Source: Nitrospirota bacterium
GTDB lineage: Bacteria > Nitrospirota > Thermodesulfovibrionia > UBA6902 > DSMQ01
Length of the DNA stretch: 64,000 nt
Assembly (NCBI GenBank): GCA_016212185.1
Contig: JACRGX010000090.1
Span: 1 to 64,000 of the forward strand
Reading direction: 5' to 3'
Made by a program: the position numbers and the translations under genes. The notes under the pieces are model-generated. The model was not told the origin of the DNA. It made no database searches and saw nothing but the letters and a program-made list of their open reading frames with translations. Below are positions 22,883 through 55,174 of this stretch, piece by piece. How positions within the stretch are numbered: position 1 is the first letter of the stretch; each line of letters opens with the position of its first letter.

Positions 22883-23035
22883 AAAGGCATGTATGTCTGA
22901 AAAACTTTAAGGCAACACATTAGCGTCATGCTGCCTTTTACAAATAGTTCAAAGACAACTACTTAAAACTTTTTGCAGCATGACTTTTAATAATCACAGT
23001 TGCTTTCTTAGAGTTTTGAAGGCATATATGCCTTT
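22883..23035. repeat. 150-bp nested palindromic element, copy 1
   Basis: Ends AAAGGCAT / ATGCCTTT; sub-terminal arms AAAAACTTTAAGGCAACA / TTGCTTTCTTAGAGTTTT; inner arms GTCATGCTGC / GCAGCATGAC. The same architecture recurs at 26352, 37247, 46197, 55175 and 57506. Confidence 0.85.
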
Positions 23036-53330: not shown

Positions 53331-54224
53331 ATGCGCTATCAACATACATTAAAACAGGAAGTCACGGTAAGCGGCATAGGACTTCACACAGGCAGAATGA
53401 TTAACATGCGGCTTAAGCCCGCGCCGCGGGACACAGGCATAATTTTCATCAGGACAGACAAGGGTAATGCAGAGATAAAGGCCTGTGTAAATTCCGTAGT
53501 AGACACGATATTTGCCACTAATTTAGGCTTTAACGGCGTACGGGTGGGAACGGTTGAGCACCTCCTGTCCGCATTAGCCGGTCTTAATATAGATAATCTT
53601 TATGTTGAACTTGACGGCTCTGAAGTCCCGATAATGGACGGCAGCGCCTTTGTCTTTACACAAAAGATAACTGAGACAGGCATAGCAAAGCAGGCAAAGA
53701 AGATTTCATGCCTAAGAATTATAAAACCTTTTTCAATTGAAGAGGAGTTCTGCCAGATTGCAGTCATGCCGTATGAAGGCACCAAGGTGACATACCGTGT
53801 TCATCACAAACACCCCGCCTTCGGAGAACAGAAAATGAGCATTGATATAACCGGCACAAACTTCATCAAAGAGCTTGCGCCTGCAAGGACCTACGGATTT
53901 CTGAAGGACGTAAATTTCCTCCGGTCTAAGGGATTGGCGCGGGGCGGCTCGCTGGAAAATGCGCTTGTTCTCGGGGAAAACGGACTAATCAACAAAAACA
54001 AACTAAGATTCAAGAACGAATTTGTGCGTCATAAAATCCTTGATGCAATAGGCGATATATCATTGCTCGGACTGCCGATTTACGGCCATATAATCGCAAA
54101 CAAGGCAGGACATGCCCTAAATATAAAATTTATAAAAAAGCTTCTTTCATTTAAAGACGCCTGGGAAATAGTCTCAGAGCCGCATATCTCTCCTTCTTCA
54201 TCAGCGCTCGTCGCGTCCGTATAA
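53331..54224 (+). CDS. lpxC: UDP-3-O-acyl-N-acetylglucosamine deacetylase
   Basis: Zinc enzyme for the committed step of lipid A synthesis, 297 residues. The motifs are GIGLHTG, VGTVEHLLSALAGLNIDN (zinc His), SEVPIMDGSA, PARTYGF, FVRHKILDAIGDISLLG (zinc His/Asp) and the catalytic His in NKAGHALN. No Shine-Dalgarno; TAATAT lies 7 nt before the ATG. It confirms a lipid A outer membrane. Confidence 0.95.
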   Translation: MRYQHTLKQEVTVSGIGLHTGRMINMRLKPAPRDTGIIFIRTDKGNAEIKACVNSVVDTIFATNLGFNGVRVGTVEHLLSALAGLNIDNLYVELDGSEVPIMDGSAFVFTQKITETGIAKQAKKISCLRIIKPFSIEEEFCQIAVMPYEGTKVTYRVHHKHPAFGEQKMSIDITGTNFIKELAPARTYGFLKDVNFLRSKGLARGGSLENALVLGENGLINKNKLRFKNEFVRHKILDAIGDISLLGLPIYGHIIANKAGHALNIKFIKKLLSFKDAWEIVSEPHISPSSSALVASV

Positions 54225-54252: not shown

Positions 54253-54300
54253 CAATAACGGCATATGTGCCTGAGAAACTTTAAGGGCAACACCCTAATC
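54253..54300. repeat. Half copy of the 150-bp nested palindrome
   Basis: Only the left arm remains (AATAACGGCATATGTGCCTG, GAAACTTTAAGGGCAACACC); it stops where the terminator of the small peptide gene begins. It is either truncated by, or fused with, that terminator. Confidence 0.7.
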
Positions 54301-54347
54301 AAAAAAGAAGGGCAGCTGCATCCTGTTATTTCAGGATGCAGCTGCCC
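54301..54347 (-). terminator. Intrinsic terminator of the 19-residue peptide gene
   Basis: Perfect 16-bp stem GGGCAGCTGCATCCTG / CAGGATGCAGCTGCCC, 6-nt loop, and TTCTTTTTT tail on the minus strand. Confidence 0.9.
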
Positions 54348-54370
54348 TAAAAACAACTCAACTGCAAAAG

Positions 54371-54430
54371 TTATTTTTTCTTCTTCTTTGCTGTTTTCTT
54401 CTTAGCAGCAGCTTTCTTCTTGGCGGCCAT
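54371..54430 (-). CDS. 19-residue Lys/Ala-rich peptide
   Basis: A tiny gene encoding MAAKKKAAAKKKTAKKKKK. It has GGGGGTGAG about 6 nt before the ATG and a perfect intrinsic terminator 24 nt after the stop, both on the same strand, so it is probably expressed. The AAKKK repeats resemble the DNA-binding tails of histone H1-like and AlgP-type proteins. It lies downstream of the winged-helix gene, separated by the palindrome TATCCCGG-GTTTA-CCGGGATA. Function unknown; a nucleoid-associated role is only a guess. Confidence 0.6.
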   Translation of the reverse strand: MAAKKKAAAKKKTAKKKKK

Positions 54431-54450
54431 TCCTACTCACCCCCTTTCAT

Positions 54451-54471
54451 ATCCCGGGTTTACCGGGATAA
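54451..54471. promoter_or_regulatory. Palindrome TATCCCGG-N5-CCGGGATA, candidate operator
   Basis: 8-bp arms around GTTTA, between the winged-helix gene and the small peptide gene, directly upstream of the peptide's ribosome-binding site. There is no T-run, so it is an operator candidate rather than a terminator. Confidence 0.45.
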
Positions 54472-54473
54472 GT

Positions 54474-55019
54474 CTATAATCTTCCAAGCAATAAAATTTT
54501 TTTTGCATTCAAAAGTTTTTTTAAACGCGCATCGCCCTTTCTTTTCTTCGTCTTGTAGTCCATTTCATTCATAACGGTATAGTGCAATTCCCTGCCAAAA
54601 CGTTTTTCAACCTCGCTGAGATTATTCTTAAGATTATTGGAATCGCAGACAATAAACAGATTTATTGAGGGGACATCCGAGCCTTCCGCATAAGGCCCGT
54701 AAATAAAAGCAGTCTTTACCGAAGAAACTCTGAGCGTTGATTTAAGGGCTCCGGGAAGCCCGAGGGACTTTGCAATCAATCCTTTCAGCTCTGGAAAAGG
54801 AGGAGAGTCTTTGTTGACCTTAAAATATTTTAGATTGCCTTCCTTTTCACTCATAACAAGCCCCATCTTTTCCAGCTTGTCCAGTTCTCTCTTAACGCCT
54901 GACGGATTTTTTCTTACCAGCCTTGCAATCTCCCTGACATAAAATTTTTCTTCAGGACTGTTAAAAAGCAAAGACATAATGTCTGCTCTTATTCCTGATG
55001 TAAAAAGTTTCTCTAACAT
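54474..55019 (-). CDS. Winged-helix regulator with degenerate nucleotidyltransferase domain
   Basis: 181 residues. The N-terminal winged helix (LFTSGIRADIMSLLFNSPEEKFYVREIARLVRKNPSGVKRELDKLEKMGLV) resembles ArsR/MarR-type DNA-binding domains. The C-terminal part resembles a minimal nucleotidyltransferase, but the usual GS and D-x-D catalytic motifs are replaced by YGPYAEGSDVPSINLFIV, so it is probably inactive and used for ligand or protein binding. It reads towards the small Lys/Ala peptide gene and the palindrome at 54451, its likely target. Confidence 0.78.
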   Translation of the reverse strand: MLEKLFTSGIRADIMSLLFNSPEEKFYVREIARLVRKNPSGVKRELDKLEKMGLVMSEKEGNLKYFKVNKDSPPFPELKGLIAKSLGLPGALKSTLRVSSVKTAFIYGPYAEGSDVPSINLFIVCDSNNLKNNLSEVEKRFGRELHYTVMNEMDYKTKKRKGDARLKKLLNAKKILLLGRL

Positions 55020-55174
55020 TCTTTCTCTAATATTATTTATATAACATTATTTTTACATTGTCAAGAAAAAAATGCAAAAAAAGAACGGACAAACACTTTT
55101 TGTAAACAATTTAGTTGTTGCCAATAGGGATACTTTTGTTGCTAAATAGTAAACAATCTTAAATCAGATGCAGG

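Follow-up and report, generated by a model that had tools for sequence, protein, structure and literature searches.

Whether a reading frame of 19 codons, nearly all of them for lysine or alanine, can be a gene, and what its product could do in the cell, is the question raised by one short stretch of a 64,000-nt window (the whole piece of DNA analysed) from a Nitrospirota genome of 2.33 Mb that is 97.6% complete. The frame lies on the minus strand, with its ATG at 54430 and its stop codon ending at 54371, and the peptide, MAAKKKAAAKKKTAKKKKK, has a charge of about +11 across its 19 residues. The original prediction described an expressed-looking gene of a kind that escapes gene finders. Our results agree: the gene is real and selected, with promoter, Shine-Dalgarno and terminator signals of strong expression, and family libraries miss it. 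The locus comprises the following features:

53331 to 54224, plus strand: lpxC, the convergent neighbour, by which the conserved position of the micropeptide gene can be recognised.
54299 to 54348, minus strand: intrinsic terminator, a perfect hairpin with a U-rich tail, recognised from its fold and from relatives.
54371 to 54430, minus strand: Lys/Ala micropeptide gene, 19 aa (11 Lys, 6 Ala) plus stop.
54437 to 54448, minus strand: extended Shine-Dalgarno sequence GAAAGGGGGTGA, kept letter for letter by 64 of 96 distinct relatives and present as a variant in the others.
54450 to 54470, minus strand: 5' RNA hairpin, ending 1 nt 5' of the Shine-Dalgarno sequence (p=0.005 against dinucleotide shuffles).
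54474 to 55019, minus strand: upstream cistron of 181 aa, an ArsR/SmtB-type winged helix with a degenerate nucleotidyltransferase-like C-terminal half.
55036 to 55064, minus strand: operon promoter, TTGACA (55064-55059), 17-nt spacer and TATAAA (55041-55036).
55083 to 55112, minus strand: conserved upstream box TTGTTTACAAAAAGTnTTnnnnnGTTC (TTGTTTACAAAAAGT...GTTC), found by alignment of upstream regions.

Relatives of the upstream protein occur at 50 named loci, of which 48, from Nitrospirota or uncultured-bacterium assemblies, are orthologs. Every one of these 48 Nitrospirota orthologs is followed, 32-109 nt past its stop codon, by a Lys/Ala ORF of 13-116 aa, which is far above chance; the two other loci, distant homologs labelled Deltaproteobacteria, are without such an ORF. 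Lengths and distances span the same ranges in 96 distinct sequences (45% K, 31% A and also 13% T), some of which are closely related, so that counts over them are not independent and disjoint-pair and non-redundant tests were used to guard against kinship. Most of the genomes are metagenome assemblies, and lineage names beyond the named set are inferred ones. Conservation of the reading frame, on which the original prediction had been made to depend, is observed, with the frame kept and changes mostly synonymous: 19 disjoint pairs of equal length differ 34, 25 and 108 times at codon positions 1, 2 and 3, and carry 43 amino-acid changes where about 108 would be expected (92-122 under neutral simulations, from a simple model with 60% forced transitions and uniform sites). 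Lysine triplets are mainly spelled AAG-AAG-AAA, and the lysine dicodons AAAAAA (79 against 116 expected) and AAAAAG (157 against 223 expected) are depleted. This substitution pattern and codon usage are marks of translation and of selection at the protein level. A chance ORF is ruled out by the synteny and the substitution pattern. These comparisons show complement(54371..54430) to be a real protein-coding micro-gene, and its product is, on the same comparative grounds, a protein of the 'histone-tail-only' kind, which gene finders miss for its shortness and which selection has kept over a very long time.

The signals around the ORF suggest strong expression, much as the original prediction had it. 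The ribosome-binding site is strong, as claimed: the 12-nt GAAAGGGGGTGA is nearly invariant among relatives and presumably pairs, with one G-U, with almost the entire 16S tail as generally known. Only four GAAAGGRGGTGA sites are present in the whole 2.33-Mb genome, and the micropeptide's is the sole one with a central G. The rare extended Shine-Dalgarno sequence was also noted before a 47-aa basic protein with a TTG start, MNKTKKAEKKTAAKMKTISYHMKCVQTANGLTHFVMYGDVPKKKMPL (L041 near 1500; G000:C20:2484), and before a 55-aa Cys-rich protein, MEKECCNIKITGTEDGLRIDIKGEGLKEKCEAVFKNCCSDDTKKSGFQSCCGSGK (L043 near 1500; G000:C76:53779). The perfect terminator that had been predicted is there as well, its stem (54309-54348) having 17 counted pairs followed on the minus strand by TCTTTTTT (-36.1 kcal/mol, z -9.1), and in 72 of 95 relatives a terminator begins no more than 32 nt past the micropeptide stop. 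The predicted palindromic site is present at 54450-54470, but its identity is that of an RNA hairpin which recurs in relatives with different sequences (72 distinct 3' arms before removal of redundancy). Hairpins touching the Shine-Dalgarno sequence reach p<=0.05 in 37 of 63 non-redundant loci and p<=0.01 in 20, and in the window the whole-segment fold of this region is by itself ordinary (z -0.9). Comparison of the locus with Rfam gave sub-threshold chance matches and nothing else.

Upstream, the TTGACA box shows no variation in 14 of 14 aligned divergent regions, and the conserved box at 55083-55112 is a candidate UP element or operator. A consensus scan detected no promoter-like site between the winged-helix gene and the micropeptide ORF, and for this reason the two are read as one transcription unit; we infer that the micropeptide gene stands last in a two-gene winged-helix/micropeptide operon. 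A 14-bp tandem repeat, TTTCTCTAACATTA (3.2 copies, 55008-55052), spans the -10 box and the start of the winged-helix gene and overlaps an imperfect palindrome at 55028-55049, and it is possible that this region is an operator. The window also holds an interspersed repeat with the core GTGCTTGAAAAACTTTAAGG at 22893, 37260, 46315, 54267, 55187 and 57521 (6 copies at no more than 3 mismatches against 0.03 expected), and between 55180 and 55335 two inverted copies of the repeat end, CGGCATAT...AACTTTAA, enclose a short insert in a MITE-like arrangement.

The micropeptide gene had been said to adjoin a winged-helix regulator, and the upstream gene does encode a winged-helix protein, the one with a Lys/Ala ORF downstream of all 48 orthologs. 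It matches Pfam HTH_5 (E 2.3e-6), its AlphaFold model has a pLDDT of 87, and Foldseek found it SmtB/CzrA-like across about 85 residues. It also matches PADLOC PDC-M05A over residues 3-180 (E 5.1e-38). Because Foldseek and PDB searches returned no convincing solved relative for the C-terminal half, the description 'nucleotidyltransferase-like' rests on PDC-M05A and on the order of secondary structure.

This arrangement is one of several in the phylum. In other families a HEPN-domain ORF comes after the winged helix, and behind it stand between one and three Lys/Ala ORFs of 15-26 aa, arranged in tandem and almost every one preceded by a Shine-Dalgarno sequence of its own. A third group of families, probably Nitrospira with its kin, has as upstream partner a coiled-coil + HARE-HTH protein of an unrelated winged-helix family; a Lys/Ala ORF follows at 27 of 27 short HARE-HTH loci (L191-L217; 26 by script, L213 by eye), and many of these HARE-type micropeptides start with TTG, the shortest being MATKKAAKKKKK with 12 aa. 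In all 44 winged-helix-type and all 25 HARE-type loci that have lpxC in range, the Lys/Ala ORF is convergent with lpxC and lies no more than 0.6 kb from the end of lpxC, and the loci of the two types are therefore positionally orthologous. In genus g10, from the window's order, the upstream winged-helix gene has been lost from the locus and the Lys/Ala ORF kept, which shows that the winged-helix gene is not a strict requirement for the peptide. No Lys/Ala gene was found beside lpxC in families f13, f14, f16/g40, f22, f24, f27, f30, f35, f37 and f40, and the micropeptide gene is therefore dispensable. A strict search pattern is seen in 62 of 396 genomes of the window's phylum and in 3 of 297 genomes from the phylum to which a Deltaproteobacteria-labelled genome belongs, where only L250 (27 aa) is similarly short. 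Family f29 (L159-L173) has an extra micropeptide locus, MATKKAAAKKPVKKAAAKKKK, where no winged-helix gene is evident nearby, and one genome (G187) has both an f29-type locus and a HARE-type gene of 13 aa, MATKKAAAKKKKK.

Across the phylum the peptides at this locus measure 12-116 aa and are Lys/Ala from residue 2 onward, so the 'bare tail' length proposed by the original prediction does not hold, there being no fixed length. What stays constant is a high lysine density with Ala/Thr/Pro as background, an N-terminal MA[AT]KK-type start, signals for strong expression and winged-helix company. Since length varies freely, repeats grow in frame and the gene is duplicated in tandem, the amount of charge, and not a fold, would be what is under selection; the two to three tandem copies may be for dosage. 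The likeliest product is an abundant, disordered and strongly cationic peptide working by charge density, which would bind and condense nucleic acid, mainly the DNA of the chromosome, in the manner of the C-terminal tail of linker histone H1. Its dose would be governed by the winged-helix operon partner, which might in effect be the 'globular' DNA-binding half supplied as a separate protein. Taken as a whole, this reading (a disordered abundant polycation that binds or condenses nucleic acid, chiefly chromosomal DNA, at a dose set by its operon partner) is one that, reasoning by analogy, we hold with evenly divided confidence. DNA is preferred over RNA on the circumstantial ground that two unrelated winged-helix families sit upstream. 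The winged helix is also the commonest transcription-factor fold, and the partner may therefore be merely an autoregulator.

A Lys/Ala polycation would have affinity for RNA, ribosomes or acidic proteins as well, and the peptide could be associated with translation, attaching to mRNA, rRNA or nascent ribosomes in the way that small ribosomal proteins do with their tails, perhaps with feedback on dose through the hairpin. The extended Shine-Dalgarno sequence, as in highly translated genes, and the conserved hairpin that touches it are in keeping with such a role. The large variation in length and the tandem copies are however not what a structured ribosomal protein would show, the gene's partners code for winged-helix proteins and not for the translation machinery, and some families are missing the gene, so that we consider this role plausible in kind and unlikely in fact.

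It seems distinctly less probable that the peptide works solely with the winged-helix protein, as its cofactor or antagonist, acting for instance on its acidic surface or operator complex and inherited from what was once an MNT-HEPN conflict module (PDC-M05). The match of the winged-helix protein to PDC-M05A (E 5e-38), the match to PDC-M05B of the HEPN ORF that lies between winged helix and peptide in other lineages, and the co-occurrence in 48 of 48 loci speak for such a role. The pairs of winged-helix and HEPN genes matching PDC-M05A and PDC-M05B that precede micropeptides outside the window's order (L118-L133) suggest that a conflict module was domesticated and that most of the window's class has lost its HEPN half. 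A dedicated partnership is nevertheless hard to reconcile with the HARE-HTH partner elsewhere, which comes without MNT or HEPN, or with the peptide standing alone in g10, and free length variation speaks against a specific interface.

Polyphosphate binding, which the original prediction had offered as a function, is favoured by the likeness in composition to the AlgP and PhaF tails and by the finding of AlgP at polyphosphate granules (PMC9239181). Of 58 genomes searched, 2 have PPK1 (PF02503) and 7 have PPK2 (PF03976); neither was detected in the window's genome or the searched peptide-bearing genomes of its class, in searches whose controls were positive in known species. Although another polyphosphate synthase is possible, polyphosphate binding is unlikely as a common role, and as the explanation of this peptide we find it highly improbable. 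Scarcely credible is a leader or attenuator peptide, or a non-coding RNA with an incidental ORF, as a very short Lys-rich frame beside an RNA hairpin and terminator might suggest, because no regulated gene lies downstream on the same strand, lpxC being convergent at 44 of 44 and 25 of 25 loci and the terminator coming right after the ORF, and because the synonymous pattern, the in-frame expansion of repeats to 116 aa and the retention of the ORF where the winged-helix gene was lost all speak against it.

If the DNA-condensing polycation is carried further, the phylum may hold a 'split linker histone', in which one operon at a fixed locus encodes a winged-helix protein together with a detached H1-tail micropeptide of down to 12 residues, and the winged-helix half has been exchanged between unrelated families with the tail gene kept. 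We put this forward as a doubtful though not far-fetched proposal; if true, few free-standing chromatin proteins with such deep conservation would be smaller. None of the long HARE-HTH proteins inspected has a Lys/Ala tail fused to its winged helix. The comparative evidence shows that a protein of 12-25 residues, almost purely Lys and Ala, can be a deeply conserved gene, and such genes are invisible to gene finders and family libraries. The fixed address beside lpxC makes it findable by anyone in complete genomes, so that a minimal H1 tail function is directly testable, and the natural length series from 12 to 116 aa offers a way to ask what charge density alone does to the nucleoid.

Open-access literature searches returned no description of Lys/Ala micropeptides of this sort, but several known systems bear comparison. 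The candidate defence module PDC-M05 shares with the window its M05A nucleotidyltransferase-like protein; its adjacent HEPN partner, M05B, is absent from the window's operon and present in other families, and the micropeptide is outside PDC-M05 as described. The Lys/Ala/Pro C-terminal domains of AlgP (AlgR3) and PhaF in Pseudomonas are likewise of low complexity, Lys/Ala-rich, disordered, H1-like and variable in repeat number, and KPAA-repeat peptides of the AlgP tail bind DNA in vitro (PMC9239181). In those proteins, however, the tail is fused to a structured helical N-terminal domain (AlgP has 352 residues), whereas the micropeptide is the whole product, 12-116 aa among relatives and 19 aa in the window. 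Stand-alone and Lys/Ala-rich, like the micropeptides, are Hc1 and Hc2 of Chlamydia and the H1-like family of Burkholderia type (NF038053, PF07382), whose members are DNA-binding. The length of Hc2 also varies through lysine-rich repeats (PMC2848022), but at 165-237 aa. The long relatives of the micropeptide score at best 18.1 bits against Hc2 (PF07382; cut-off 40), the 19-aa copy being too short to scan, and at best 17 bits against hist_H1_lk_Burk (NF038053; cut-off 80), in both cases far below the threshold. In the broad sense of a Lys/Ala-rich, low-complexity protein with a variable number of repeats the micropeptides are H1-like (45% K, 31% A, 13% T; 12-116 aa), and the original description of a histone-H1-like tail is sound as to composition.

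Linker histone H1 itself consists of a winged-helix globular domain and a Lys/Ala tail, and kinetoplastid H1 is tail-only. The likeness lies in a winged-helix part and a Lys/Ala-rich tail acting together, or in the tail alone; the difference is that here they are two separate proteins of one operon, with a winged helix of ArsR type or HARE-HTH and not GH1/GH5, and no homology is claimed. Among H1-like proteins, which are a known kind, this micropeptide is remarkable for its size and its fixed address.
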